Source of the DNA: a virus
DNA length: 64,000 bases
Strand: one strand, 5' to 3'
Virus record (IMG/VR): IMGVR_UViG_3300023184_000028
Location: 54,551 to 118,550 of that record
The notes under the pieces: model-generated
What the model was told of the DNA's origin: nothing
The model's database searches: none
What the model saw: the letters and a program-made list of their open reading frames with translations, nothing else
In this document: positions 29,210-62,089 of the stretch, piece after piece
Layout of the letters: every line of letters begins with the position of its first letter
Position numbering within the stretch: position 1 is the stretch's first letter
Made by a program: the position numbers and the translations under genes

Positions 29210-32200
29210 ATGGCAACAAACAGCAAAGTATTCGTATCACCTGGGGTGTATACATCCGAAAGGGATTTAAGTTTCGTCGCTCAAAGTGTTGGTGTAACAA
29301 CTTTGGGTATTGTTGGTGAGACTTTAAGAGGTCCTGCCTTCGAGCCCGTTTTTGTAACTAACTATGATGAGTTTCAAGCTTATTTTGGAGGAACAACTCC
29401 AGAAAAATTTGTGAACACACAAATTCCAAAGTATGAAGCCGCTTATATAGCGAAATCATATCTTCAACAATCAAATCAACTATTTGTAACAAGAGTACTT
29501 GGATTATCAGGTTATGACGCGGGTCCTTCTTGGTCAATTAAAACAATTGCAAACGTAGACGTTGACACTGTAGGTTTCGTTCAAGCTTGTTCGGGAACTC
29601 CTATTTATAGTCCAACCCCTTCATGTGTTGTAACATGTGACCCACCAATTCCAGTAACATTTAGTGTTGAATTTAGTGGTACTGCAGGACAAGATGGTTC
29701 TATAGTACTTACTAACTGGATAGGTGGTAGTGAAATCCAAGTTAAATTGGACGACACCTATACTAAATTTAATGGTAGTACTTCAACATTAAGAGAAGAC
29801 ATTAACGCAGAATTGTTAACTGTTTTTGGTAGTCCAGCAAAAAGTGCATCAACTATTAGTTACTTTGGTACAATATGGGAAACTGAATATTTAATGTTAG
29901 CTCCTGTGTATACTTCAGCAACCAATGTTTTTTCAGTTCAGAATGTTTGTTCAACAAGTGCTATATTAAGTTCTCGTTTAAATGACGCGTGGTACTATTC
30001 GTTATTTGATAACTTTAGTGGTAATAGTTATTCAGGTTTCTCATTCTTCAGTATTGTTGATACTTTAGTAATGTTACCTAAATCTACAACTACTACAACA
30101 ACATCACCTACAACTACCACAACTACATTTAATCCATGTAACCCTGGTGGCGGAGGTGGTGGTGGTGTAACTACAACTACAACTACAGAACCAGATTCAT
30201 TCTCAGGTACTGTAACAGGTTTAATCTACTATTTTACTGGTGATTCTTACGTTAATTATAACAATTTAATAGTTGCAACGATGAGGTCTAGAGGTATTTC
30301 TAACTTTAATACAACTCAACATGGTCCATTATATGAAGTAACTGAATTATCTAACGTAGCTTTAGATTTCTCAGGAAGTTATATGGCGGTAGAAAAAAAT
30401 CCATATGCACCTTTTGGAATTAATATTACGGGAGATACTGGTACTGTTTATTCGTTTCAGGCATCAATGAATCCTAATATTGTTAGTTATTTACCTAAAG
30501 TATTTGGTACTGACAATTTTGCTAAACCAAAATCTGAAGTTCCTTTATTTGTTGAATCAAGATTTGACAGTATGGTAAGTTGGGCATATAAAAAAGGTTT
30601 TATTAGAGGTTTAAGACAAGATTTAACTTCATTTGATAGTGCTAGAAGTAATTTACCAACAAATCATGGTTATTATAATGAACAATATAAATCGCCAGAA
30701 AGCCCTTGGGTTGTTTCTGAATTGAGAGGTAGTGTTGTTTATAATCTATTTAAAGTTATATCTGTATCAGATGGTGATAGTGCTAACAGACAAATTAAAG
30801 TTTCATTTATTAATATGTCATTTGACAATAATAATTTTGATGTATTAGTTCGTGATTTTTATGATTCAGATGAATCTCCTGTTGTTTTGGAAAAATTCAC
30901 TAACTGTTCTATGGATTCAAATCTTAATAGTTTTATTGCTAAAAAAATCGGTACTTCTAACGGTGATTTTACATTGAATTCTAAATTTATTATGTTAGAA
31001 ATGAATGAAGATGCACCTATGGATGCATTACCATGTGGATTTGAAGGTTATAAATACCAAGTTTTTGGTACTGATAAATCTCCATTCCCTGTATATAAAA
31101 CAAGATATACATATCCTGGTGAACAAGTATTTAACCCACCATTTGGTTATTCTGATGGTACTGAAGATGCGTCATTTAGTAGCGGAGATAATGTTAGAAG
31201 AACTTACTTAGGTTTATCAACTAATGTTGATTCTGAATATGATGGAGATTTCTTTGATTATATTGGTAAAATAAATACCGGTTCAATTGAAAACCCAACA
31301 TTGAATGATTGGAATTATATGACAAAAGGTTTCCATATGGACTCGGGAGCAACCTCAATAATAATTTCAAATCAATACACAACTTCAGGTATGTCAGCAT
31401 TTGCCGCAGGTGCCGCTGATTTTAGATTTGACCCAATTGATGAGAATAATCCTTACTATAGAATTTACGCAAGAAAATTCACTGTTATGGTAGCGGGTGG
31501 TTTTGACGGATGGGATATCTATAGAGAATCAAGAACAAATACTGATAAGTACATTCTTGGTAAATCAGGTTACTTAGGTGGAGCCGCACCAGACGCTAGA
31601 TATCCATCAGCAAGTGGTGTTGGTTTATTCAAAAGAATACAAATTGAAGATAATACTGTAGATTGGGCAAATACTGATTACTACGCTTACTTATTAGGAC
31701 AAAGAACATTCTCACATCCTGAATCTACTAATATCAATGTGTTTGTAACTCCAGGTATTGACTACGTTAATAACTTAGGATTGGTTAATCAAGCAATTAA
31801 TTTAGTTGAAATAAATAGAGCTGACTCTTTGTATATCACAACAACACCTGATTTTGAAATGTTTGTACCTAATACTATGAGTCCAATGGATTTCCATTAT
31901 CCTACAGATGCGGTTGACTTGTTAGCCGAATCAGGAATAGATTCTAACTATACGGCAACTTACTATCCTTGGGTATTGACAAGAGATAATGTTAATAATA
32001 CTCAGATTTACATTCCAGCAACTGCTGAAGTTTGTAGAAACTTAGCGTTAACAGATAACATCGCTTTCCCTTGGTTCGCATCAGCGGGTTACACAAGAGG
32101 TCTTGTAAATGCAATTAAAGCTAGACGTAAGTTGACTCAAGAAGATAGAGATACTCTATACATTGGTAGAATCAACCCAATCGCAACGTTCTCAGATGTA

Positions 32201-32563
32201 GGTACGGTAATTTGGGGTAACAAAACTCTACAAGTTGCAGAAAGTGCTCTTAATAGAATCAACGTAAGAAGATTATTATTACAAGCTCGTAAATTAATAT
32301 CTGCAGTAGCTGTTAGATTGTTGTTTGAACAAAATGACCAAAAAGTAAGACAAGATTTCTTAGACGCTGTCAATCCTATCTTAGATGCAATCAGAAGAGA
32401 TAGAGGTTTATACGATTTCCGTGTAACAGTTTCTAATTCTATTGAAGATTTTGATAAAAATCAGTTGGTAGGTAAGATTTATATTAAACCTACTAAATCT
32501 TTAGAATTTATTGATATTGAATTCTTGATTACACCAACAGGTGCTTCATTTGAAGATATCTAA
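29210..32563 (+). CDS. 18: Contractile tail sheath protein, gp18-like
   Basis: The N-terminus (KVFVSPGVYTSERDLS, then GVTTLGIVGETLRGPAFEPVFV and YFGG) is the standard start of T4-type sheath proteins. The C-terminal third carries the conserved core (VGLFKRIQIED, DAVNPILDAIRRDRGLYDFRV, GKIYIKPTKSLEFIDIEF). At 1117 residues it is far longer than T4 gp18 (659). The extra mass is a central insertion that includes Thr-rich and Gly-rich low-complexity stretches at about residues 289-327. Insertions at this place are expected to face outward on the sheath. A TATTTAT motif lies 35 bases upstream and a strong terminator follows the stop. Confidence 0.92.
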   Translation: MATNSKVFVSPGVYTSERDLSFVAQSVGVTTLGIVGETLRGPAFEPVFVTNYDEFQAYFGGTTPEKFVNTQIPKYEAAYIAKSYLQQSNQLFVTRVLGLSGYDAGPSWSIKTIANVDVDTVGFVQACSGTPIYSPTPSCVVTCDPPIPVTFSVEFSGTAGQDGSIVLTNWIGGSEIQVKLDDTYTKFNGSTSTLREDINAELLTVFGSPAKSASTISYFGTIWETEYLMLAPVYTSATNVFSVQNVCSTSAILSSRLNDAWYYSLFDNFSGNSYSGFSFFSIVDTLVMLPKSTTTTTTSPTTTTTTFNPCNPGGGGGGGVTTTTTTEPDSFSGTVTGLIYYFTGDSYVNYNNLIVATMRSRGISNFNTTQHGPLYEVTELSNVALDFSGSYMAVEKNPYAPFGINITGDTGTVYSFQASMNPNIVSYLPKVFGTDNFAKPKSEVPLFVESRFDSMVSWAYKKGFIRGLRQDLTSFDSARSNLPTNHGYYNEQYKSPESPWVVSELRGSVVYNLFKVISVSDGDSANRQIKVSFINMSFDNNNFDVLVRDFYDSDESPVVLEKFTNCSMDSNLNSFIAKKIGTSNGDFTLNSKFIMLEMNEDAPMDALPCGFEGYKYQVFGTDKSPFPVYKTRYTYPGEQVFNPPFGYSDGTEDASFSSGDNVRRTYLGLSTNVDSEYDGDFFDYIGKINTGSIENPTLNDWNYMTKGFHMDSGATSIIISNQYTTSGMSAFAAGAADFRFDPIDENNPYYRIYARKFTVMVAGGFDGWDIYRESRTNTDKYILGKSGYLGGAAPDARYPSASGVGLFKRIQIEDNTVDWANTDYYAYLLGQRTFSHPESTNINVFVTPGIDYVNNLGLVNQAINLVEINRADSLYITTTPDFEMFVPNTMSPMDFHYPTDAVDLLAESGIDSNYTATYYPWVLTRDNVNNTQIYIPATAEVCRNLALTDNIAFPWFASAGYTRGLVNAIKARRKLTQEDRDTLYIGRINPIATFSDVGTVIWGNKTLQVAESALNRINVRRLLLQARKLISAVAVRLLFEQNDQKVRQDFLDAVNPILDAIRRDRGLYDFRVTVSNSIEDFDKNQLVGKIYIKPTKSLEFIDIEFLITPTGASFEDI

Positions 32564-32610: not shown

Positions 32611-33426
32611 ATGAAAAAAAAACTGAGAGAAGGGATTAATGATGAGGGGACACCTGATTTAAAGTATTATGCGTTTGATTGGGATGATAATATTGTCACA
32701 ATGCCGACAAAAATAATACTTAAAAACGAGGAAGGTGATGATGTTGGAATGTCTACTGAAGATTTTGCTAAATACAGAAGTAGATTAGGGAAAGAAAATT
32801 TTAATTATAAAGGGGACGTTATTGTTGGTTATGGTGAGAATCCTTTTAGGAATTTCAGAACCGAGGGTGATAAATTATTTATAATTGATTCCATGTTAGC
32901 AAAACCAGGTCCTGCTTGGGGTGATTTTATGGAAGCAATAAACTCAGGTTCAATATTCTCAATAATAACAGCTAGAGGACATAATCCTAATACGATTAAA
33001 GAAGCGGTTTATAATTATATTATTTCAGGTTTCAATGGGTTGGATAAAAGTGAGTTGATAAAAAACTTAAAAAAATATAGGGAATTTACAGACCAAGATA
33101 ACTTAAAAGATATTGAATTAATTAGAGATTATCTTAATTTATGTAGATTTTATCCTGTTTCTTTTGGTGAAGGTGCTGAATCAAATCCTGAAGAAGCTAA
33201 AATAAAGGCGTTAGAAGAATTTGTGAATTATATTAAGGAATTATCACATGAATTAAATAAAAAGGCTTATTTAAAAAATAATGTGAAAAATTTCTTTTTA
33301 CCTACTGTAGGATTTTCTGATGATGATATTAAAAATGTTGAAGCAATTAAATCGCATTTTAATAATAAAGAAGATAATATAGTTAAAACATATTCAACAC
33401 AAGGAGGAATTAAAAAAGAATATTAA
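32611..33426 (+). CDS. HAD-superfamily phosphatase-like protein
   Basis: The start is taken at the ATG at 32611; an in-frame TTG nine bases earlier lies at the end of the terminator T-tract. In the 271-residue product KYYAFDWDDNIVTMP is HAD motif I (Asp23, Asp25), FSIITARGHNPNTI is motif II, and VGFSDDDIKNVEAI is motif IV with its acidic pair, so the active site looks complete. A ~60-residue cap region lies between motif I and II. It may act on nucleotides, DNA ends or a phosphoprotein. It is located between sheath and tube genes and has no T4 tail counterpart known to me. Confidence 0.65.
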   Translation: MKKKLREGINDEGTPDLKYYAFDWDDNIVTMPTKIILKNEEGDDVGMSTEDFAKYRSRLGKENFNYKGDVIVGYGENPFRNFRTEGDKLFIIDSMLAKPGPAWGDFMEAINSGSIFSIITARGHNPNTIKEAVYNYIISGFNGLDKSELIKNLKKYREFTDQDNLKDIELIRDYLNLCRFYPVSFGEGAESNPEEAKIKALEEFVNYIKELSHELNKKAYLKNNVKNFFLPTVGFSDDDIKNVEAIKSHFNNKEDNIVKTYSTQGGIKKEY

Positions 33427-33549: not shown

Positions 33550-34038
33550 ATGGCTGATTTACTCATGAAGATGCCGGTTCCATACGAACCAAAACGGCAG
33601 AATAGGTTTATCTTAAGATTTCCATCTAATTTGGGAATCAACGAATGGTTTGTTGAATCTGCAGCTAGACCACACATCAAAATTAACTCAACTGAAATTC
33701 AGTTCTTAAATACATCTACTTACGTAGCAGGTAGATTTACTTGGGACCCAATTACAGTTAAGTTTAGAGACCCAATTGGACCTTCAGCGTCTCAAGCTCT
33801 TATGGAGTGGGTTCGTTTATGTGCTGAATCAGTTACAGGACGTATGGGTTACGCAGCGGGTTACAAGAAAAATGTTGATTTGGACATGTTAGACCCAACA
33901 GGTGTTGTGGTTGAAAAATGGATTCTTCAAGATACATTCTTAACCGATGTAAATTTTGATTCTTTGAGTTATTCTCAAGATGCGTTAGCGACAATCACTG
34001 CTTCTCTTAGAATGGATAGATGTATATTGGTTTATTGA
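33550..34038 (+). CDS. 19: Tail tube protein, gp19-like
   Basis: The 162-residue protein matches the length (163) and layout of T4 gp19. It begins PVPYEPKRQNRFILRFP, continues with WFVESAARPHIKI and TWDPITVKFRDPIGPSASQALMEWV, and ends with DVNFDSLSYSQDALATITASLRMDRC, the strand pattern of the tube-protein beta-barrel. It polymerises into the inner tail tube inside the sheath. A TATTTAT motif lies 35 bases before the ATG, and a hairpin terminator follows in the downstream gap, so it is probably a separate, highly expressed late transcript. Confidence 0.9.
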   Translation: MADLLMKMPVPYEPKRQNRFILRFPSNLGINEWFVESAARPHIKINSTEIQFLNTSTYVAGRFTWDPITVKFRDPIGPSASQALMEWVRLCAESVTGRMGYAAGYKKNVDLDMLDPTGVVVEKWILQDTFLTDVNFDSLSYSQDALATITASLRMDRCILVY

Positions 34039-34144: not shown

Positions 34145-34900
34145 ATGGATGCAACACAACAATATGCTCAACAGAATTTCTCATTACCACACGATGTCGT
34201 AAAATTACCATCAGGTGGAGTATTTTATAAATCAAAGAAAAAGGTTATCAAAGTAGGGTATCTTACTGCTGCTGATGAAAATCTATTGATGGCGGGAGGA
34301 ACTATTGGAAACGATAGCGTTATTATGACACTCCTTCGTAGTAAAATATATGAATCTGATATTAAACCTGAGGAGTTATTACAAAGTGATATCCAAGCAA
34401 TTCTAATCTTCTTAAGAAACACTGCTTTCGGAACTGACTATGAGTTTTCAATTGAAGACCCCGAAACAGGTAAAATATTTAATTCCATTATATCTTTGGA
34501 GGAATTATTTTTAAAACAAACTGATGTTAAACCAAGTGAAGATGGTTCTTTATTAGCAACATTACCTAAATCAGGTATTTCTGTTAAAGTGAAACCTTTA
34601 TCTTTTGGTGAATTAAATGAGTTGGATAAAATGGCGGAATCATATCCACAAGGAAGAGTAGTTCCAAAACAAACTTGGAAATTACAACGAATGATTGTTG
34701 AAATGGATGGTAATTCAGACAAATCATATATTGTTCAAAATATTGAAACATTACCTATTTCAGATGCCAAATTTATTAGAAAATTTGTTGATGACAATGA
34801 GCCAGGATTAGACCTAAACAAAAAAATTATAGCCCCATCAGGAAAAGAGATATCTGTCAATATATCTTTTGGGGCGGAGTTCTTTCGGCCTTTCTTCTAA
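34145..34900 (+). CDS. T4 gp26-like baseplate hub-assembly / tail assembly chaperone protein
   Basis: The 251-residue protein resembles the T4 baseplate-assembly family (Pfam T4_baseplate; gp26/gp51 group). VKLPSGGVFYKSKKKVIKVGYLTAADENLLM opens the protein, followed by LLRSKI, DIQAILIFLRNTAFGTDYEF, ISVKVKPLSFGELNEL and a C-terminal INISFGAEFFRP. It lies immediately before the tape-measure gene, the place held by tail assembly chaperones in most tailed phages. A second frame (34833-35048) extends past its stop and is described separately. The gene has no TATTTAT motif close to its ATG and follows a terminator by three bases. Confidence 0.72.
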   Translation: MDATQQYAQQNFSLPHDVVKLPSGGVFYKSKKKVIKVGYLTAADENLLMAGGTIGNDSVIMTLLRSKIYESDIKPEELLQSDIQAILIFLRNTAFGTDYEFSIEDPETGKIFNSIISLEELFLKQTDVKPSEDGSLLATLPKSGISVKVKPLSFGELNELDKMAESYPQGRVVPKQTWKLQRMIVEMDGNSDKSYIVQNIETLPISDAKFIRKFVDDNEPGLDLNKKIIAPSGKEISVNISFGAEFFRPFF

Positions 34901-35048
34901 TTACCGAGAATCACAATCTAGAGAATACTATATCTGCACTAAACACTTAAACGTGTCTTATGCAGATTTTTGTGTTATGCCTATCTTTCTACGAAAATTC
35001 ATAATTAATGAATTAGTTACGGAAAACTCTCCACCACAAAATAAATAA
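34869..35048 (+). CDS. Out-of-frame extension of the tail chaperone (59 aa if started at TTG)
   Basis: The +1 frame relative to the chaperone gene is open from 34833 to a TAA at 35046-35048. Beyond the chaperone stop it encodes SNYRESQSREYYICTKHLN followed by VSYADFCVMPIFLRKFIINELV. This contains an MP..LRKF pattern that recalls the small proteins or frameshift tails of tail chaperones. The frame could be translated from TTG at 34869 or by +1 slippage: GGG at 34871-34873 can re-pair perfectly one base on, because 34871-34874 is GGGG. No ATG starts the frame before its mid-part (34977). Expression is inferred; the amino-acid pattern and position argue it is real. Confidence 0.6.
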   Translation: MGRSSFGLSSNYRESQSREYYICTKHLNVSYADFCVMPIFLRKFIINELVTENSPPQNK

Positions 35049-35077: not shown

Positions 35078-38000
35078 ATGCTTGAAGGAAAAAAAACAGA
35101 TACTACTTCATCAGAAGTAAAAGAAGCTCTACCAATATTTGGTGACTTTGATTTAGGTAAAGTTGCTGATGGATTAAATCCTGTGAATGCCGCGTTTAGG
35201 ATTCTTAACAGTAATGTCAATGTACTTAGTGAATCATTTCAAACAAAGTTAGTAGAATCTATTAATAAAATGGAAACTGCGGTTACCAGTTTAGCAATGA
35301 AGTTTGGTGGTAATAGGGAAATGGTTGGTGAAATTGAAAAGAGTCTTAGTTTAGCGAGAAGTAGTGTTGTATCATTAGGTGGTACATTAGATGATGTTGT
35401 AAATATTCAAGCGGGTGTAATTAAAGGATTACAAACTCAAACAATTTTAGATAAAGAATCTTATGGTGATTTATATGCCATTGGTAATTTAATTAATGAC
35501 GGTGCCAAAACCACTGCAGAATCAACTGCAAATTTAGTAAAACAATTTTCAGATGCTGGATATGGTTTATATAATATTAGCAAAGAAATGGGTACTATTA
35601 TTTCTAATGCTAGAGAAATTGGTGTTGCTACATCTGCGGTTTATAAACAACTTAGTGATAATATTGGTGTTGTTTCTTTATATAACTTTGAAAATGGTGT
35701 GCAAGGTATGGCCAAAATGGCGACTGAAGCTGCGGGATTAAGACTTAATATGGCAGATGTTTTAAAGGTCGCTGATAAAGTTTTTAACCCTGAAGATGCG
35801 ATACAAATGGCTGCTGATATGCAGAGGTTAGGTGTTAATGTAACTAGTTTATTAGACCCATATAAGTTAATGGATATGGGTAGAAATCATCCTGAAGAGT
35901 TACAAAAATCCATGGAAGAAATGCTTGGGTCTCTAACATATTTTGATGAAAAACAACAAGCTATAAGGATATTACCAAACGAACAAGGTAGATTAAGAAA
36001 AATTGCTGAGGCAATGGGAATGGGTGCAAAAGAAGCCGCTCAAATGGCGGTTAATTTTGCTGATATGGATAGAAAGATGAGTAAAATTAAATTCTCATCT
36101 GATTTTGCAACAGAAGAAGATAAACAATTAGTTGCACATATGGCACAAATTGGTGAAAAAGGTACACAATTTGAAGGTAAATATGTCGTTAATTTATTGG
36201 ACGAATCTGGTGAACCAACGTTAAAGGCGGTTGAAGAGTTAACTAAAGCCGATAAAGAGAGGCTCAAAAAAATGGAGGGGGATAAAGGTAAAAGTCCCAC
36301 TGAATTACAAATTGAGGCTAATAATTATCTTTCTAATATCAACAATAGTTTAAAGGCTAGAGAAGGGGTAGTCCCTACAGCAATGGCTGCATCAACATCT
36401 TTTCAAAAGATACAAAAAGGAATTTACGAAAGAGTTGACCCTGTAATAAAAGGTGTGGGTGCTGCTTATGGTATGGTGGAAAATAAGAAAGGTTATATTG
36501 ATGTAAAACCTGCCATTAGTAAAGCAGAAAAAGTTGCTGAGAATACTCTTGGAGGGTTTGTTAATGCTTTACAAAATGGGGAAACCGATACTAAAAAAAT
36601 ATTTAATAATTTAAAAGGTTCATTTAATGACTTGGTTACTGATTTTGGAAATGCTTCTAAAAAGATTGCTGAGTTCTCTAACAGAATATCAGAAGAAGGT
36701 GTAAAAAGTGGTAAATATTCTGAAACTCACAAATATGATGATTTAGTAAATAGTATTACTAATATGGTTACAACGGTGACAAACAAATTTGGTGTTATTT
36801 TATCAAATTCAAATACAACGCCAAATACTACAGTAGTAACTAATTCAAACTACACCCCAACAACTAACCCTAATTATCCTATTACACCTTCATCGTCACA
36901 ACCAGCACCTCCACCATCGTCAACAATAACAATACCACCGGCAAGTAATACTCTTCCCGTAATTAACGCTAATTATCCGGTATCGTCACAACCAGCACCT
37001 CCACCATCGTCAACAATAACAATACCACCGGCAAGTAATACTCTTCCCGTAACTAATGCTAACTATCAAATACCATCACAACCAACAACAAATACACCAC
37101 CACTAATACAAAGAATTACAACACCACAAACAAATAATGTTGGAGTTGCACCAACAACTAATAATTCTTTATCAACACAACAACAGTCACTTACCAATTT
37201 ATCTAAACTGTTTAAAGAAATTGATGATAATATTAATAATCTTTCTACTTCTAAGATTCAACAAAGTTCAATACCTTCTACAAGTATAGATTGGGTTAGT
37301 ATTATAAGTACGGGTAGTGCTTTAGGATTTGGTAATGCATTATCTAAATTTGAGAATCCTGGAACAATAAAAATGACATTGTATGGTGATAAAGCGGGAT
37401 TAGGGTTACAGATAAGTAATAGTGTTGGTAAAATGGAAAATACTATTGGTAATGCCATCACCGAATCTCAAAAGTCAAATACAAACGTAGTAACAAAAAC
37501 GGAAGTTAAAAAAGAAGAATCTTCTACACAAAAAAATACAATATCGGTACCTACTTCTTATACAACTCCTAACGAATTAAAAGGTGCGGTACAAAAACCA
37601 TTTATAGGACCAATACAACCTGAAAAAACATCCGTTATTACCGCAACACCTCCACCAACACCTGAACCTATTATAAATGTTGTAAAACCTAAAATTGGTG
37701 GTGAGGATGAAACATCGTTAATTTCTGAAATTGTAAGAAATGAAAATAATATTATAAATGAGGTAAAAGATTGGAAAACACCGATGGTATTGCCTGAGGA
37801 GACTAAGAAAGAAACAAATATGTTTTTATTACCATCAACTACGGAAAAACCTTATGATGTTAATACACCTTTAAAACCTAAAGAAGAAGAAAAAGAAAAA
37901 ACAATAACACCTACAGAAACTAAAACTATTGAGACGAAGCCGACAACCGATATTTTTGGTAGTTCTAATAAGTTAACTGATTCTATTGTTAATTTCTTAA

Positions 38001-39256
38001 ATAAAAATAAACCAGTAACAACTGATATTAAGGAATCCCCTATATCTCCTGTGGTTGATTTAAGTAAGATATCTGATAATTTAAAAACATTATTAACTGA
38101 AAAAACAATAACACCTGTATCCCCTCCATCACCTGAGCCTACAATAAAATTCACAATGCCTAAAATTGGTGGAGAGGATGAAACATCATTAATTTCTGAA
38201 ATAATAAGAAATGAAAATAATATTATAAATGAGGTAAAAGATTTGAGAACGCCAATGGCGTTACCGGAGGAACCTAAAAAAGAGAAAACGGCACCTGTTT
38301 TTAATATATTAAAACAAACTGAAAAACCTTACGATATTAAGGTACCTTTAAGACCAAAAGAACAATCAATTGAAAAAGAAATTAAAACGGTTGATACTGA
38401 ACAATCTAAAATCTTAAAATTTGAAAATGACTTTTTAGGTAATTTTAATAAAATGAATGAAACTTTGGATAAAGGTTTTAACTCTCAAGTTTCTTCTGCG
38501 GATTTAAGTAATAAAAATATTGAAAAAGATGGTGAAATTAAAACGCAGATATTATCAGCAAATGTGAAATTGAGTGATGATTTTACTAAAGGAATTTCTA
38601 ATATTACTAATATAGATAATAATCAAGTTAATCAAACACCAACTACTGAGTTAAAAATGACCGATGAGATTAAAAATCTATTAGGTAAAAATCAGTCTCA
38701 AACATTTGTTGAAAAACTAACTACTGTACCTCCAATATTAAATCCAACTATCAAATTACCTGATTATTTAAATAATGTTAAACCTGAGGGAGAAACGTCA
38801 ATAAAAGTAAAGGAAGATATTATTTCAACAACTAAAAAAACAACTGAACTTTTTAATGATATAAATAAAATATATAATCCAAGTTCATTAATTGCTAATT
38901 TAAATGAAAGTAATAAAGGATTATATAGTACTATTAATAAAGTTATTACACCTGTTAATGAAGGAAGCGTTACTAACGTTAAACCACCTGTAACTACTAC
39001 ACCAATATCTAATGTTATACCACCAGCAATTACAAATGTGTCTAATGTTACTAGAACTGAAACGGTAACCAAAGATGTAAATCATAAATTTGATGATATA
39101 AAGGGAGATATAACTATAAATGTACCTAATATGCCAAATTTAGAAGCCGCATTAAATAATCCTCAATTTATTGGAGACTTACAAAGAAAAATTGTTAATC
39201 ATGTTATAAATCAAAAAATATTAGAAGGGGCCGGTAACTATAGTTATAATGTTTAA
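35078..39256 (+). CDS. Tail tape measure-like protein
   Basis: The 1392-residue protein lies directly after the chaperone genes, the classical tape-measure position. The first ~530 residues are helical with alternating charged and small residues (INKMETAVTSLAMKF, IGVATSAVYKQLSDNIGVVSL, AEAMGMGAKEAAQMAVNFADM) as in phage tape measures. Residues 590-720 are a Pro/Ser/Thr-rich region with a perfect 30-residue tandem repeat. The region from about 870 to 1100 holds two related units spaced 157 residues apart (PKIGGEDETSLISEI). No transmembrane helices were seen. Such proteins set tail length and sit inside the tube. T4 gp29 is 590 residues, so a longer tail is possible. Confidence 0.65.
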   Translation: MLEGKKTDTTSSEVKEALPIFGDFDLGKVADGLNPVNAAFRILNSNVNVLSESFQTKLVESINKMETAVTSLAMKFGGNREMVGEIEKSLSLARSSVVSLGGTLDDVVNIQAGVIKGLQTQTILDKESYGDLYAIGNLINDGAKTTAESTANLVKQFSDAGYGLYNISKEMGTIISNAREIGVATSAVYKQLSDNIGVVSLYNFENGVQGMAKMATEAAGLRLNMADVLKVADKVFNPEDAIQMAADMQRLGVNVTSLLDPYKLMDMGRNHPEELQKSMEEMLGSLTYFDEKQQAIRILPNEQGRLRKIAEAMGMGAKEAAQMAVNFADMDRKMSKIKFSSDFATEEDKQLVAHMAQIGEKGTQFEGKYVVNLLDESGEPTLKAVEELTKADKERLKKMEGDKGKSPTELQIEANNYLSNINNSLKAREGVVPTAMAASTSFQKIQKGIYERVDPVIKGVGAAYGMVENKKGYIDVKPAISKAEKVAENTLGGFVNALQNGETDTKKIFNNLKGSFNDLVTDFGNASKKIAEFSNRISEEGVKSGKYSETHKYDDLVNSITNMVTTVTNKFGVILSNSNTTPNTTVVTNSNYTPTTNPNYPITPSSSQPAPPPSSTITIPPASNTLPVINANYPVSSQPAPPPSSTITIPPASNTLPVTNANYQIPSQPTTNTPPLIQRITTPQTNNVGVAPTTNNSLSTQQQSLTNLSKLFKEIDDNINNLSTSKIQQSSIPSTSIDWVSIISTGSALGFGNALSKFENPGTIKMTLYGDKAGLGLQISNSVGKMENTIGNAITESQKSNTNVVTKTEVKKEESSTQKNTISVPTSYTTPNELKGAVQKPFIGPIQPEKTSVITATPPPTPEPIINVVKPKIGGEDETSLISEIVRNENNIINEVKDWKTPMVLPEETKKETNMFLLPSTTEKPYDVNTPLKPKEEEKEKTITPTETKTIETKPTTDIFGSSNKLTDSIVNFLNKNKPVTTDIKESPISPVVDLSKISDNLKTLLTEKTITPVSPPSPEPTIKFTMPKIGGEDETSLISEIIRNENNIINEVKDLRTPMALPEEPKKEKTAPVFNILKQTEKPYDIKVPLRPKEQSIEKEIKTVDTEQSKILKFENDFLGNFNKMNETLDKGFNSQVSSADLSNKNIEKDGEIKTQILSANVKLSDDFTKGISNITNIDNNQVNQTPTTELKMTDEIKNLLGKNQSQTFVEKLTTVPPILNPTIKLPDYLNNVKPEGETSIKVKEDIISTTKKTTELFNDINKIYNPSSLIANLNESNKGLYSTINKVITPVNEGSVTNVKPPVTTTPISNVIPPAITNVSNVTRTETVTKDVNHKFDDIKGDITINVPNMPNLEAALNNPQFIGDLQRKIVNHVINQKILEGAGNYSYNV
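36892..37052 (+). repeat. 90-base direct repeat in tape-measure gene
   Basis: A 71-base block at 36892-36962 recurs identically at 36982-37052, a period of 90 bases (30 codons). It encodes SSQPAPPPSSTITIPPASNT twice. Identity at the DNA level suggests a recent duplication. Confidence 0.85.
37688..38285 (+). repeat. Two diverged coding repeats in tape-measure gene, 471-base period
   Basis: The unit beginning PKIGGEDETSLISEI, followed by RNENNIINEVKD, occurs at 37688 and again at 38159, exactly 157 codons apart. Similar flanks (PEP before; EKPYD and PLKPKE after) show that more than the core was duplicated. Confidence 0.75.
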
Positions 39257-39295: not shown

Positions 39296-42200
39296 ATGCC
39301 AAGTAGTTTAGATTTTTCATCAACCGAAGCTTTTAGGAATAGATGTCTCACTAAGAATTTATCCCCTTATACAGTACCTGGCGTCTATGCACCACCATCT
39401 ATAACAAATATAGTACAAGAGATAGTACAAACAGTTTCATCTGTTATTGACTCACCTGATAACCTTATAGCAAATGACCCATTTGCAGATGTTTTATATC
39501 CATTAAATCTTTATGGCCCTGATGGTGGGTATGATAAAAATATTAATGTTGGCGGATTGAGTAATACTCGGTCTAACGCTGGTCCATATGACTATAGTGA
39601 TGCTAAATTACCAAGATTAAGTCTAAATACCGAAAGTTTAATACCGTCTTTAAATAAATACGGTTCTTTAACACCAACAGATTTAATATCCATTAATAAT
39701 ATTCAATCTGTACCTACGTTTGTACAATACTCAGACCCACTAAGTTTTATACCATCAACATATACGCCTTATGAAATTTTATTAAATAATGATAACGCTG
39801 TTGGTGATAATGGTAGTTTATCTCAAGATTCATATATTGCTCAATTAGGTGCAAAACAACTTAAAAAAGATTTTGAAGATAGAATTGCTAGAGAGATTTA
39901 TAGAAATTCGGTAGGTAGAGTTAATTTATTAAATGCCGTTGGTAATCCATTACAGGCAATACAAATTTTACAAGGAAAGACACCTTTAATTGAAAAAAAT
40001 TGGACTATCTCAAGACCAAGTAATTATATTTTTAGAGCAGCTGATTTTATTGCCAGATTGGGGGGAGCTTATTATCCTGCATCTGTAATACCCGGTGATT
40101 ATTTTACGGCCGACGACCATAATTTAAGTTTATTTGGGCAGATATCAAAAGCATTCAATGGAGGGAAAGACCCAAGATTATCATATGATGATGAGGGAAA
40201 TCCTAAAGGAAGTAGCAGTACAAGTAAATTAATAGGTAGATTTTATTCAAGACCATCACCGTCTCAATTATTTCTTGATAATACAGGTCAAGGACAAAAA
40301 TCACAATTATATTATAATTTAGGATTTAATAGATATGCTCCTGATTATAATAAATCTATTTTTGGTGAGATTAGGGATAAAATTAATCAATCAATAGACA
40401 ACCCAACTAAAGGGGGTTACTATGTTGGTACAAAACAATTAGACGCTTCTTATATTAATTCACCAGCTGGTGATGTGCCTATTGACCCTTGGGGTAGAGA
40501 AATGCAATCATCGGTTTATGGTCCTGACAAATTATATAAAACATTTGAAGGTAATCTTATTGATGATAACTATAAAATTGGTTTAGGGGGATTGGCTATT
40601 ACAAGTGATGAAGTAAGAGGAGAAACGGGAGGATTAGTTTGGACTTCACCAAAATATAACGTTGTTGGAAAAGAAGCGATGATTGGAGGTGACTTATCTA
40701 AAAATTATACAAGAAATAATTTCTCATCAAAAATAACATCAATTTTTTTAACTGATAATTTTACATTTAAACAAGGTTCAATATTAGATAATACACAAAG
40801 AATAGTTGACTCAACACCTAGAAGTACTAGAAGATTTTCACATGCGGGTAACGCAATTAATCAATTGAGTAAAGTATTTCATGATGGGTATAAAGAAATA
40901 ACTAAAGGTTCAAAAATTCAAGGGTATATTAATCCTGCAAAATCAGTATATAGTGGTACTAATGTTTATTGTAGAGTATTTGCTAAAGACACCCCTTATT
41001 ATCAGTATTCCGATTTACAAAAAACTGATGGTAATATAAGAAAATATACATATTCTGTTTTAGATAATACATTCAATCTTAATATTGCACCAACTAAAGG
41101 ACCTGGGTCAACAAATATCGTTGATGGTAAAGTTAAAAAATATATGTTTTCTTTAGAAAATTTGGCATGGGCGAGCTCAAAAAGAAGTGGGGTTTCAGTT
41201 TCAGATTTACCGGCTTGTGAAGTAGGACCTAATGGGGGTCGTATTATGTGGTTCCCACCATATGATATTAGTTTTAGTGAAACTGTATCACCAACATTTA
41301 AAGGACAAGATTTTCTTGGAAGACCCGAACCTGTTTATACCTATACAAGCACAAAAAGGTCAGGACAATTAAGTTGGAAAATAATTGTTGACCACCCATC
41401 AATATTAAATGTTATTGCAAATAAGGAATTACAAAACAATCCAAATGCGGATAATATCATAGAATCTTTTATTGCGGGATGTTTGAAATATGATATATAT
41501 GAGTTGGCTAGGAGATGGAATCAAATTAGTCCAAACGAATTATTTGTATTACAAGAAACTATCAAAAAGAACAATCCGAAAGTAGAATATGTTGCTGCGG
41601 TTGCTGGAGACCTACCAACTACTAAAGATGTTACAAATACTATAGTTACACCTATAAGTGTACCTAACTTAAAGAATTATGAAGGATTTGGATATTATTT
41701 TGATAATGATACACCAAATCCCAATACTTATGCGACTACATCCACAAGTAATTGGAATACATTATATAATACCTATATACAAAATATTGATTCATATAGT
41801 GCGAAAGCACCTACTGATAAATTAAAAGATGCGGTAAGAACATTTTTTTATTCTGCAATAACGTATAACTACGAACAAACAAATGCCTTATATAGAGATA
41901 TTGAAAAATATTTTAATGATTTTAAACAAAATCCTGATTCTACCACACAACCATTAGTTACAATTACTTTGGTTGGAAGTGCATCTGCTGTGGCGTCTAA
42001 TCAATATAATGTTAATTTATCTGCAAGAAGAATTAATTCTGTTGTAAATTACTTATCGGGAGATAGTTTCTTATCTCAATACATTCAGAATGGACAATTA
42101 AAAATTGTGAATGGTGGTGCACAAGGTGAGGATTATACGGCAACAACAATGGCTAATTCAGGGTTTCCTGTAGATAGTATTGATTGTACTCAATTATCAA

Positions 42201-44245
42201 AAAATGCAACTTTATTTGAAAAAAGATATTCAGTAAATGCGATGGCTTGTAGAAGAGTAGCAATTTCAGATATAACATATAGTACTCCCGACCCAAAACA
42301 AACTGTTAGTACAACAAAAGAAAATACTAGTCCTGGAAAACAAGGGACTCCCGAATATTGGACTTCCACACCACAACCTGATACAATAACAACCCAACAA
42401 AGAATTAAAGAAGGTATTAGTAAAGAAGTTTTAAGAAAATTATTATCTGAATGTGATTATTTTGAAGTATTAAAAGAAAATGACAGTATGATTTATAGTA
42501 AATTACAAGATAAATTAAAATTTTTTAATCCTGCATTTCATTCTATAACACCTGAAGGATTAAATTCTAGACTAACATTTTTACAACAATGTATGAGACC
42601 TGGAGATACAATACCATCAAAAGACAAAGATGGTAAGGATGTTTATAATGATGCTAGAAATACAGCCTTTGGTGCCCCTCCTGTGTTAGTGTTAAGAATT
42701 GGGGATTTTTACAATACTAAGATTATACCACAAAGTATGAATATCACATATGACCCATTGTTATTGGATATGAATCCTGAAGGTATTGGGGTTCAACCAA
42801 TGATTGCAAAAATTAGTTTAAATTTTGAAATAATAGGTGGTGAGGGATTAAAAGGTCCTATTGATAAATTACAAAATGCTTTGTCATTTAATTATTATGC
42901 AAATACAGAAATGTATGATGAGAGGGCAGATGCTACAGACGATTCTTATCAACAGATAGATAATGATTTAGTTAAAGCGATTTTAGATAATTCTGATTAT
43001 GTTGTTGGTATTAATAACTTAAATAACGAACTTGAAAATGAGGGAGGAAATACTATAGGTATTATACAAGAAAGATTTGTAGATAATACGGGTATCAGTG
43101 GAACCACGACGTATCAGAAAATAATGGATTCCTATTATGATGCGGGGCAATCATACTTAAATTCGTTTTTTAATAAATCAAAAGAAATTATATCTCAATA
43201 TAACATACCATTATTTACTCTTTTTTCTTTAGAAAGAAAATATTCACAAGGTAATGCTAGAGAATTTACATCACCATTTACTATGTTTATATATGGTAAG
43301 CCCGATAACGTACAACAAAATATTAACGATTTATTTGATAATATTATTGATGATATACAAAGAGTTAATAGTAAAACTGATGACGGAAATAGATTTATTG
43401 CGACCTTATTTAGATATAACTTTCCAAAGAAAAAAGTTATTAATGTTATTAAAACTAATTTAATTAATGAAGTTAATTCTGCAAAAGAAAAATTAATTAC
43501 TTCATTAAGTCAAGTAATTCAAGAATTGGTACAAAATCAACAAAATCTTGTAGGTGTTATGGCTAAATTGGATTTAGTTGATACACTAACAGATGGTTAT
43601 ATTAAATCTAACCAAAGCGCTCAAATATTTAATTTAACGGCAACAACCGAAGTACAAACAGGTTCTAATGCTGCCAACACTTACGATGAATTAGTTAATG
43701 ATTATAGTTCAGGTAGTACAAAATTATTTACATTCTACGTTAATTATTTAACAAACAATTTAATTAAGTATGGTTTTGATTTTGATGATATTAATCTTGT
43801 TTATAATCCTGATTTTATTTATCCTAATTGTGATGTTTGTACAAATTCTGAGAAAAGATTTTTTACAGGAATGAGTAATATACTTTTAAATGAAACAAGT
43901 TATAATTCTTTTAGGAGTCATGTCATTACCAGTGATATTGCTAATGAAAATTATAATGGATTTACTCCCTTAACGGTCTTTGATTTATTTTATTCAGGAA
44001 GAAAAATCGTTTATGATACTGAATATAAGTTAGAACAAGATTTCTTTTTGAATAAAATTGAAACTGAATATAATAAAAATTATAAAGAATGGAATGCTTT
44101 TGTTAAAGGAAAGACAAGGAAGTTTTTATTCACAAACTATGTTGGAGGCACTCCAGTACAAGAAGAAAGGTTAAAAAATCTATATAAAGATGGTAATTCT
44201 AATACCAATAATAACGTTTTCAACGGTAAAACTAAATTTAACTAA
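39296..44245 (+). CDS. Giant baseplate-type protein with internal OmpA-like domain
   Basis: The 1649-residue protein is structural by context. Around residues 645-720 it has a conserved phage/injection-system pattern (GGRIMWFPPYDISFSETVSPTF, then GRPEPVYTYTSTKRSGQLSWKIIVDHPS). Residues about 886-965 look like an OmpA C-terminal peptidoglycan-binding domain: TITLVGSASA, NLSARRINSVVNYL and a short strand after it, with a ~50-residue loop. A further ~650 residues include PPVLVLRIGDFYNTKIIPQSM, a likely second copy of a tail-type beta domain. Its stop overlaps the ATG of the gp53-like gene. A role at the baseplate touching the cell wall is inferred. Confidence 0.55.
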   Translation: MPSSLDFSSTEAFRNRCLTKNLSPYTVPGVYAPPSITNIVQEIVQTVSSVIDSPDNLIANDPFADVLYPLNLYGPDGGYDKNINVGGLSNTRSNAGPYDYSDAKLPRLSLNTESLIPSLNKYGSLTPTDLISINNIQSVPTFVQYSDPLSFIPSTYTPYEILLNNDNAVGDNGSLSQDSYIAQLGAKQLKKDFEDRIAREIYRNSVGRVNLLNAVGNPLQAIQILQGKTPLIEKNWTISRPSNYIFRAADFIARLGGAYYPASVIPGDYFTADDHNLSLFGQISKAFNGGKDPRLSYDDEGNPKGSSSTSKLIGRFYSRPSPSQLFLDNTGQGQKSQLYYNLGFNRYAPDYNKSIFGEIRDKINQSIDNPTKGGYYVGTKQLDASYINSPAGDVPIDPWGREMQSSVYGPDKLYKTFEGNLIDDNYKIGLGGLAITSDEVRGETGGLVWTSPKYNVVGKEAMIGGDLSKNYTRNNFSSKITSIFLTDNFTFKQGSILDNTQRIVDSTPRSTRRFSHAGNAINQLSKVFHDGYKEITKGSKIQGYINPAKSVYSGTNVYCRVFAKDTPYYQYSDLQKTDGNIRKYTYSVLDNTFNLNIAPTKGPGSTNIVDGKVKKYMFSLENLAWASSKRSGVSVSDLPACEVGPNGGRIMWFPPYDISFSETVSPTFKGQDFLGRPEPVYTYTSTKRSGQLSWKIIVDHPSILNVIANKELQNNPNADNIIESFIAGCLKYDIYELARRWNQISPNELFVLQETIKKNNPKVEYVAAVAGDLPTTKDVTNTIVTPISVPNLKNYEGFGYYFDNDTPNPNTYATTSTSNWNTLYNTYIQNIDSYSAKAPTDKLKDAVRTFFYSAITYNYEQTNALYRDIEKYFNDFKQNPDSTTQPLVTITLVGSASAVASNQYNVNLSARRINSVVNYLSGDSFLSQYIQNGQLKIVNGGAQGEDYTATTMANSGFPVDSIDCTQLSKNATLFEKRYSVNAMACRRVAISDITYSTPDPKQTVSTTKENTSPGKQGTPEYWTSTPQPDTITTQQRIKEGISKEVLRKLLSECDYFEVLKENDSMIYSKLQDKLKFFNPAFHSITPEGLNSRLTFLQQCMRPGDTIPSKDKDGKDVYNDARNTAFGAPPVLVLRIGDFYNTKIIPQSMNITYDPLLLDMNPEGIGVQPMIAKISLNFEIIGGEGLKGPIDKLQNALSFNYYANTEMYDERADATDDSYQQIDNDLVKAILDNSDYVVGINNLNNELENEGGNTIGIIQERFVDNTGISGTTTYQKIMDSYYDAGQSYLNSFFNKSKEIISQYNIPLFTLFSLERKYSQGNAREFTSPFTMFIYGKPDNVQQNINDLFDNIIDDIQRVNSKTDDGNRFIATLFRYNFPKKKVINVIKTNLINEVNSAKEKLITSLSQVIQELVQNQQNLVGVMAKLDLVDTLTDGYIKSNQSAQIFNLTATTEVQTGSNAANTYDELVNDYSSGSTKLFTFYVNYLTNNLIKYGFDFDDINLVYNPDFIYPNCDVCTNSEKRFFTGMSNILLNETSYNSFRSHVITSDIANENYNGFTPLTVFDLFYSGRKIVYDTEYKLEQDFFLNKIETEYNKNYKEWNAFVKGKTRKFLFTNYVGGTPVQEERLKNLYKDGNSNTNNNVFNGKTKFN

Positions 44246-60018: not shown

Positions 60019-61887
60019 ATGAATAAAATGGACGCATCTCAGAAGATATTGTCTGACATTACGGTGTATATGAAATACGCCAAATTTTTACCCGAACTTG
60101 ATAGAAGAGAAACGTGGGAAGAATTAGTAACCAGAAACATGAATATGCACATTAAAAAATACCCCAAACTCGGAAGTGAGATTGTTGAGGTATACAAATA
60201 TGTGTATGATAAAAAAGTATTACCCTCAATGAGGTCAATGCAATTCGGTGGAAAACCAATTGAAATTTCTCCAAACAGAATTTATAATTGTGCTTACCTA
60301 CCTATTGACCATTTGGACGCATTTGCTGAAGCAATGTTTCTACTTTTGGGTGGAACAGGTGTTGGGTACTCAGTACAAAAACATCATGTTGAGAAATTAC
60401 CTGAAATTAGAAAACCAAACTCAAACAGAAAAAGAAGATTCTTAATTGGAGATTCTATTGAAGGATGGGCTGACGCAATCAAAGTATTGTTCAAATCTTA
60501 TTTCGGAGAACAGTTGTCAATGCCTGAGTTTGATTTCTCTGATATCAGACCAAAAGGAGCTCAACTGGTAACATCAGGTGGTAAAGCACCAGGTCCTCAA
60601 CCACTTAAAGATTGTCTACACAAACTACAAGGAATGTTAGAGGCGAGAGAAGATGGTGATAAATTAAGTCCTATTGAGGTTCATGATATGGTTTGTCATA
60701 TCGCTGACGCTGTCCTTGCCGGAGGAATTCGCAGAGCTGCTCTCATCTCCTTATTCAGTGCTGATGACCACGAAATGATTGCTTGTAAAGCGGGTGCATG
60801 GTGGGAGAACAACCCACAAAGAGGTAGAGCAAATAACTCCGCAGCACTTGTTAGACACAAAATCACTAAAGAGTTCTTCATGGACTTATGGAAAAGAGTT
60901 GAAGCTTCAGGTGCTGGTGAGCCAGGAATCTATTTCACAAATGATAAAGATTGGGGAACTAATCCTTGTTGTGAGATAGCACTTCGTTCAAATCAATTCT
61001 GTAATCTTTGTGAAGTTAATGTCTCTGACATTGAATCACAAGAAGACTTAAATAGTAGAGTTAAAGCTGCGGCATTTATTGGAACCCTACAAGCTGGCTA
61101 TACTAATTTCCATTATCTTCGTGATGTTTGGAGAAGAACAACTGAAAAAGAAGCACTTATCGGTGTATCAATGACAGGTATTGGTTCAGGTGTTGTACTT
61201 GGATACGATATGAAAGAAGCTGCGAAACTTGTTAAAGAAGAGAATTCAAGAGTTGCAAAACTTATTGGAATTAACGAATCTGCAAGAACAACAACTGTTA
61301 AACCTGCAGGGACAACATCATTGACATTGGGAACATCAAGTGGTATTCACGCTTGGCACAACGACTACTACGTTAGAAGAGTTCGTGTAGGTAAGAATGA
61401 AGCAATTTATAACTATCTACTTCAGAATCACCCTGAACTTGTTGAAGATGAATACTTCCGTCCTCATGACACCGCAGTAATCTCTGTACCACAAAAAGCA
61501 CCAGAAGGAGCAATATTGAGAACAGAAAGTCCATTCCAACTTCTTGATAGAATTAAAAAGATTACTTTAGATTGGGTTAGACCTGGACACAGAAGTGGTT
61601 CTAATACTCACAACGTATCTGCAACCGTAAGTTTGAAACCTGAAGATTGGGAATTAGCAGGAGAATGGATGTGGAATAATCGTGAATTTTATAATGGCTT
61701 ATCAGTACTTCCATTTGATGGGGGTTCATATATCCAAGCCCCTTTTACAGATTGTACTAAAGAAGAGTTTGAGCAATTATTTGCTAAACTACATACAATT
61801 GATTTATCTAAAGTTATTGAATTAACTGATAATACAGATTTAAGTGGAGAACTTGCTTGTGTTGGTGGGGCTTGTGAAATTAAGTAA
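60019..61887 (+). CDS. nrdJ: Class II (adenosylcobalamin-dependent type) ribonucleotide reductase
   Basis: The 622-residue protein fits the monomeric class II reductases. GGTGVGYSVQ is the family start motif; NPCCEIAL gives Asn315, Cys317 (thiyl position) and Glu319; Cys91 (IYNCAYL) and Cys328 (QFCNL) fit the redox pair. VKPAGTTSLTLGTSSGIHAWH is the phosphate-binding part. A C-terminal tail with Cys614 and Cys619 (ACVGGACEIK) would relay electrons. No beta subunit gene is present, which supports class II. It reduces ribonucleotides for phage DNA synthesis and needs a cobalamin cofactor from the host. It starts 14 bases after the helicase stop. Confidence 0.85.
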   Translation: MNKMDASQKILSDITVYMKYAKFLPELDRRETWEELVTRNMNMHIKKYPKLGSEIVEVYKYVYDKKVLPSMRSMQFGGKPIEISPNRIYNCAYLPIDHLDAFAEAMFLLLGGTGVGYSVQKHHVEKLPEIRKPNSNRKRRFLIGDSIEGWADAIKVLFKSYFGEQLSMPEFDFSDIRPKGAQLVTSGGKAPGPQPLKDCLHKLQGMLEAREDGDKLSPIEVHDMVCHIADAVLAGGIRRAALISLFSADDHEMIACKAGAWWENNPQRGRANNSAALVRHKITKEFFMDLWKRVEASGAGEPGIYFTNDKDWGTNPCCEIALRSNQFCNLCEVNVSDIESQEDLNSRVKAAAFIGTLQAGYTNFHYLRDVWRRTTEKEALIGVSMTGIGSGVVLGYDMKEAAKLVKEENSRVAKLIGINESARTTTVKPAGTTSLTLGTSSGIHAWHNDYYVRRVRVGKNEAIYNYLLQNHPELVEDEYFRPHDTAVISVPQKAPEGAILRTESPFQLLDRIKKITLDWVRPGHRSGSNTHNVSATVSLKPEDWELAGEWMWNNREFYNGLSVLPFDGGSYIQAPFTDCTKEEFEQLFAKLHTIDLSKVIELTDNTDLSGELACVGGACEIK

Positions 61888-61888
61888 T

Positions 61889-62089
61889 ATGGAAAACATA
61901 GAACAAAAAATTAGGGAGAAGGATAAACTTCTCCCTTCTTATTATTATTTTAACGAAAAGGGTTTATTAGTTTTTACTGAGGACTATCATTTAAGTAGAG
62001 GACATTGCTGCGGAAACAAATGTTTAAATTGTCCTTACGAACCTAGATATGAAAAAGGGGTGACAAACATAAAAAAAACTAATACATAA
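61889..62089 (+). CDS. Small Cys-rich DUF5522-like protein
   Basis: The start is the ATG at 61889 just after the reductase stop; an in-frame ATG at 61844 would overlap the reductase tail in another frame and is not needed. The 66-residue product has the pattern GLLVFTEDYHLSRGHCCGNKCLNCPY, with four Cys (CC, then C..C) suited to binding a metal. This is the DUF5522 pattern, found mostly in Bacteroidetes and supporting that host group. The function of the family is not known to me. It is coupled to the reductase by a one-base gap. Confidence 0.6.
   Translation: MENIEQKIREKDKLLPSYYYFNEKGLLVFTEDYHLSRGHCCGNKCLNCPYEPRYEKGVTNIKKTNT

Follow-up and report, generated by a model that had tools for sequence, protein, structure and literature searches.

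The tail assembly chaperone gene of the phage studied here, a large relative of T4, very probably gives rise to two proteins, a G/GT-type pair, by programmed +1 frameshifting at the sequence TTT-CGG. The window, i.e., the whole stretch of 64,000 nucleotides that was analyzed, is part of a 192-kb virus record and contains the following features relevant to this proposal:

29210–32563, plus strand: tail sheath protein (phrog_23, 1.3e-54)
33550–34038, plus strand: tail tube protein (phrog_4542, 7.3e-27)
34145–34900, plus strand: tail assembly chaperone, short form (G-like), 251 aa, T4 gp26/gp51 family, PF12322
34832–34875, plus strand: upstream hairpin in which 34832–34837 pairs with 34870–34875 and 34847–34850 with 34866–34869 (RNAalifold, 34 distinct sequences)
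34883–34888, plus strand: proposed +1 slip site TTT-CGG, with P-site TTT at 34883–34885, A-site CGG at 34886–34888 and re-pairing on TTC at 34884–34886
34887–35048, plus strand: +1-frame extension (T-like), 53 residues from GGC to the stop codon TAA at 35046–35048; the fusion has 300 aa
34898–34900, plus strand: TAA stop codon of the short form in the 0 frame
35078–39256, plus strand: putative tape measure protein, 1392 aa, assigned by position and size

The chaperone is a member of the PF12322 family as judged from the Pfam cut-off, which is passed, and from the fold matches described below. It scores 31.3 bits against the PF12322 model (T4_baseplate; cut-off 24.5) and matches phrog_150 "baseplate hub" with 3.4e-13; the chaperone of the relative L019 reaches 67.3 bits against PF12322. 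The gene follows the tail tube gene and precedes the large ORF at 35078–39256, which is the position expected for a G/GT gene. Family searches with this large ORF gave no strong match. Two further ORFs of the tail region were noted, a 271-aa ORF in the interval between sheath and tube (32611–33426), for which the family search was without match, and a very large ORF (39296–44245) with a weak OmpA-like match at residues 884–944 (17.3 bits, below the cut-off).

As described in the initial annotation, no stop codon interrupts the +1 frame between 34833 and the TAA at 35046–35048; this frame extends 48 codons beyond the chaperone stop and encodes ...SREYYICTKHLNVSYADFCVMPIFLRKFIINELV.... In shuffled local DNA an open stretch of this length arises by chance with about 2%. 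The other shifted extensions of at least 40 codons found among the 38 long ORFs of the window are due to adjoining long ORFs or to an ATG-started small gene. A small gene at 61889–62089 directly follows the ribonucleotide reductase ORF (60019–61887) and is open in the +1 frame of that ORF; it starts with an ATG of its own, contains a Cys-rich GHCCGNKCLNCPY motif, and is an ordinary neighbor without frameshift.

Four IMG/VR scans and a tblastn search of GenBank phages yielded 262 usable loci of relatives, 192 of them distinct and forming 118 clusters at 85%, a sample which is skewed to loci with short peptide patterns of the three query proteins. The +1 frame runs at least 30 codons beyond the chaperone stop in 189 of the 192 distinct loci and, since locus L172 also fuses in +1, the arrangement is found in 190 of 192. 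In the remaining two (LR756511 and XacN1) the chaperone is extended in −1. It is this retention in relatives which makes the open frame of the window significant, and it supports the initial proposal that the chaperone is extended by a programmed +1 frameshift. Isolates with the +1 arrangement are Flavobacterium phage immuto, Microcystis phage Mel-JY01, Bacillus phage SP-15, Streptococcus phage GXN1, Listeria phage LIS04, the Streptomyces phages BRock and LuckySocke and, from a later search, Rhodothermus phage RM378. Among the public annotated regions examined none has the joined gene annotated; several give a separate, mostly shortened ORF. A scan of a genome collection returned no cellular homologues.

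Substitution rates indicate that the extension is under purifying selection. Beyond the chaperone stop, where the +1 frame alone is expected to code, the median pairwise dN/dS ranges from 0.13 to 0.43 over five sets. The two window-family sets gave 0.19 and 0.13, the immuto-type sets 0.23 and 0.43, and the Mel-type loci 0.26. Lack of selection on this frame had been named at the outset as an observation speaking against the extension, and the opposite is found.

The site of the shift can be narrowed down by comparing the loci. In L003, L004, L012, L016, L018, and L019 the +1 frame is open over no more than the last 20–23 nt of the chaperone ORF, and therefore the shift must take place at GAG TTY TTT YGG CCT or in the few codons that follow. 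The P-site codon is UUU in 155 and CUU in 30 of the 192 loci. With a pyrimidine following UUU or CUU in these 185 loci (YTT-Y), re-pairing of the P-site tRNA one base further on is possible. In the A site we find UGG (123 loci) or CGN (54 loci, including CGC in 22, CGT in 18, and CGG in 14), and the codon after the A site is CCU in 178 of 192 loci. Four immuto-type loci reading TTT CTA TGG and LIS04 reading TTT TTT AGT are compatible with a slip on the first UUU.

Codon usage at the site is strongly biased when clusters are taken as independent. In each of three groups all slip-codon phenylalanines are encoded by UUU (25/25 clusters with a background of 83%, 34/34 with one of 75%, and 34/34 in the third group; background 75–83% overall), and the A-site arginine of the window family is CGN in 25/25 clusters and never AGA or AGG, CGN making up 13.6% of the arginine codons in the same genes. 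The A-site codon of the window is rare, CGG accounting for 6 of the 574 arginine codons (1%); this rare-codon result applies to CGG and CGN, and other clades have UGG in the A site. Dual coding is expected to produce the bias seen after the slip and some of the A-site bias, but not the bias further upstream. We found neither a lambda-like −1 slippery heptamer, the shift being +1 and the site YTT-Y, nor a Shine–Dalgarno stimulator as in prfB. The sequence GGAG at 34876–34879 was dropped as a candidate for such a stimulator, being replaced in relatives by, e.g., GTAGAG and GTCGAA. For the window protein the predicted tryptic peptide across the junction is EISVNISFGAEFFGLSSNYR, its short-form counterpart being EISVNISFGAEFFRPFF.

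Could the extension be a separate small gene, translated by coupling or reinitiation from its own start? The initial annotation offered the TTG at 34869 as such a start, a TTG or GTG is indeed present in the +1 frame of the window and some relatives, and the shortened separate ORFs of the public records would agree with this reading. We nevertheless consider it improbable. The TTG at 34869 is not conserved in relatives, and in 56 of 185 loci the +1 frame lacks any ATG, GTG, or TTG ahead of the slip site, which excludes a separate gene in many loci. The first +1 start codon downstream of the slip lies a median of 23 codons into the extension and past the conserved FFGL..YR segment. A gene with its own ATG in related phages had been considered as evidence against the frameshift; many relatives offer no start codon for it. 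The simplest alternative, an assembly error or a frameshift mutation which split one ORF, draws on the fact that a single base would join both frames. It is refuted for all practical purposes by the comparison, since the 192 distinct loci, which come from numerous metagenomes and from isolates, overlap alike and all but two are in +1.

Slippage of the RNA polymerase on a T run, leading to an mRNA that lacks one base and needs no ribosomal shift, appears a shade less probable than the separate gene. T runs of 6–8 cross the site in most relatives; however, in 40 loci, including the window-family members with TTCTTTCGG, no T run at the site is longer than 3 and the frame relation is the same, and transcriptional slippage is therefore unlikely. 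The constraint on the A-site codon and the upstream RNA hairpin also fit translation better. A real shift could finally occur at GGGG (34871–34874), the slip site favored by the initial annotation, and the GGG at codon −4 is in fact invariant in the window family (25/25). We regard this as very improbable, since L003, L004, L012, and L016 have a +1 stop codon just after the GGG (GGG GTA GAG, containing TAG) and their +1 frame opens only 23 nt before the ORF end; moreover, the G run finds another use in pairing with an invariant CCCC in the hairpin. Programmed +1 frameshifting at TTT-CGG thus remains by far the explanation best supported by the evidence, all of which is comparative.

Upstream of the slip codon the window family shows a codon constraint which we attribute to RNA structure: the GGG at codon −4 compares with a background of 8%, and GCC is used for 19/19 alanines at codon −17 (background 18%). 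The 57 nt upstream of the slip fold with a mean z of −2.13 relative to shuffles, and 72% of the sequences are below −1.5. The base of the hairpin is separated from the slip codon by 7 nt, and GGGG 34871–34874 lies in its 3′ arm. Its covariation is 0.352 compared with 0.212 for shuffled alignments (0/500 reach the observed value) and at most 0.180 when the structure is slid along the alignment. One pair is G-U, G-C, or A-U in 34/34 sequences and another is C-G, G-C, A-U, or G-U in 32/34. The fold energy is better than 100/100 column shuffles in each of two window-family subfamilies separately. This support applies to a 10-pair structure; a longer inner stem (14-pair structure) was without family-wide support and was discarded. 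Downstream of the slip no convincing signal for RNA structure was obtained in the window family, the immuto-type, or the Mel-type loci. The upstream signal is absent from Mel-type loci and at most weak in immuto-type loci. Being confined to the window family, the hairpin is therefore not essential to the general mechanism.

In the window family the hairpin probably acts as a stimulator of frameshifting. In T4 gene 60, zippering of a 5′ stem loop where the mRNA leaves the exit channel has been proposed to drive the ribosome forward; in SARS coronavirus an element on the 5′ side of the frameshift site was able to enhance +1 shifts in synthetic constructs (PMC5009743). Gene 60 resembles the window in that its stem loop immediately precedes the recoding site and differs in that it involves a long bypass and not a +1 shift (PMC5009743). 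Ribosomes of Bacteroidia are described as not recognizing Shine–Dalgarno sequences (PMC9976891). The start sites of the window phage are likewise without Shine–Dalgarno sequences. Outside the window, the genome of the phage at locus L287 encodes a bS21 homologue (G000:C1:20266–20424; PF01165, 31.9 bits, over the cut-off). As bS21 helps to hide the anti-Shine–Dalgarno sequence in Bacteroidia, a phage bS21 could alter host decoding late in infection.

According to the proposed mechanism, most ribosomes would read through to the TAA at 34898–34900 and produce the 251-aa short form. In some ribosomes the tRNA-Phe on the P-site UUU (34883–34885), with the very rare CGG in the A site, would slip +1 onto UUC; decoding would then continue with GGC CTT TCT up to 35045 and yield the 300-aa GT-like long form with its predicted three-helix C-terminal part. 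The hairpin would fold as the mRNA leaves the ribosome and probably favors the forward slip. The ratio of short to long form and the function in assembly are taken from lambda by analogy: the shared domain would bind the tape measure protein and the extension would recruit tail tube subunits.

The model of the 300-aa fusion, built with related sequences included, has a mean pLDDT of 88.9 and a pTM of 0.84, and in it the extension is folded into three helices (253–268, 272–277, and 280–294). Foldseek returned no match for the fusion model among solved structures and matched it to viral models named T4-like baseplate hub assembly protein or chaperone. In T4 (L032) PF12322 spans residues 1–206 of the 208 of gp26 and residues 1–201 of the 249 of gp51, leaving a tail of 48 residues; gp51 therefore looks like gp26 plus a 48-residue tail, which is the plan of the short and the long form. 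T4 thus seems to encode the short and the long chaperone as two genes. The resemblance of the extension to the gp51 tail is suggestive and not significant: hhalign gave a weak match (probability 8%, single-pair E 0.004), the whole-length comparison reached a probability of 1.4%, and alignments of the fusion with gp51 and gp26 were not significant. T4 gp51 has long been called essential and of unknown function.

In phage lambda the tail assembly chaperones gpG and gpGT are produced by a programmed −1 frameshift. Our locus shares with lambda the two lengths of the chaperone, the overlapping frames located after the tail tube gene and ahead of the tape measure gene, and the extension in the shifted frame. 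It differs in the +1 direction, in the UUU/CUU-Y slip codon followed by UGG or a rare CGN in the A site, in the upstream hairpin of the window family, and in the chaperone being filed under another family, PF12322. With T4 gp26/gp51 it shares this Pfam family and the extents, gp26 corresponding to the short form and gp51 to the long form, whereas T4 has two separate genes and here one gene would give both products. The slip site itself resembles known +1 sites, namely UCC_UUU_CGU of influenza A PA-X and CUU_UGA of the bacterial prfB. UUC_UUU_CGG of the window is close to the PA-X site, and in all of them a P-site UUU (CUU in relatives) could re-pair one base forward before a slow codon. The genes are nevertheless unrelated, and prfB has a Shine–Dalgarno-like stimulator and a stop codon.

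Frameshifting of G/GT genes is general in long-tailed phages, T4 being excepted in a 2016 review, which also lists the haloarchaeal myovirus HSTV-2 as a likely +1 case and +1 shifts in Listeria phage genes (PMC5009743). More recently −1 frameshifting at poly-T/GTTTTT has been reported for chaperone genes of T4-like phages, Vandenendeviridae, and Andersonviridae (PMC12846349). These systems share with ours the genomic position, the logic, and a T-rich site near the end of the chaperone gene and shift in the opposite direction (PMC12846349). The remark in the initial annotation that T4-type phages are not generally known to use this frameshift calls for an update, as PMC12846349 cites Vladimirov 2022 for poly-T signals of the −1 type in chaperone genes of T4-like phages.

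Among our loci we also noted −1 extensions at TTTTTT, probable −1 sites, in RAS14, Atu_ph07, Munch, PA5oct, OLIVR5, and the Straboviridae member AS-yj. The −1 extensions at TTTTTT, a similar Phe-Phe pair, are located at 3381–3569 in L280, 2238–2495 in L282, 2289–2534 in L283, 2286–2504 in L284, 2804–3040 in L285, 3642–3860 in L279, and 2738–2998 in L030. Vladimirov et al. (2022) reportedly identified the T4-like tail assembly chaperones, the title arguing for a mechanism other than frameshifting. Since extensions in both directions are found, the family seems to frameshift both ways at a Phe-Phe pair.

G/GT frameshifting and its −1 poly-T form are already known; the +1 version with a 5′ hairpin in a T4-like chaperone appears to be new. 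Tentatively, and with somewhat less than even confidence, we suggest that a 5′ mRNA hairpin instead of a Shine–Dalgarno helix drives the +1 shift in phages of hosts not using Shine–Dalgarno sequences. T4 gp26 and gp51 might then be the duplicated derivative of an ancestral frameshifted gene, with the slip direction at one Phe-Phe pair switching between +1 and −1. If the proposed frameshift operates, chaperones of the gp26/gp51 family, whose type member was the exception of the 2016 review (PMC5009743), would be widely encoded with a +1 frameshift and the annotation of many large phages would be corrected. The loci would provide a naturally repeated data set for the rules of +1 slippage (UUU or CUU in the P site, UGG or CGN in the A site), the 5′ hairpin would be a testable candidate stimulator, and T4 gp51 would gain an evolutionary reading.
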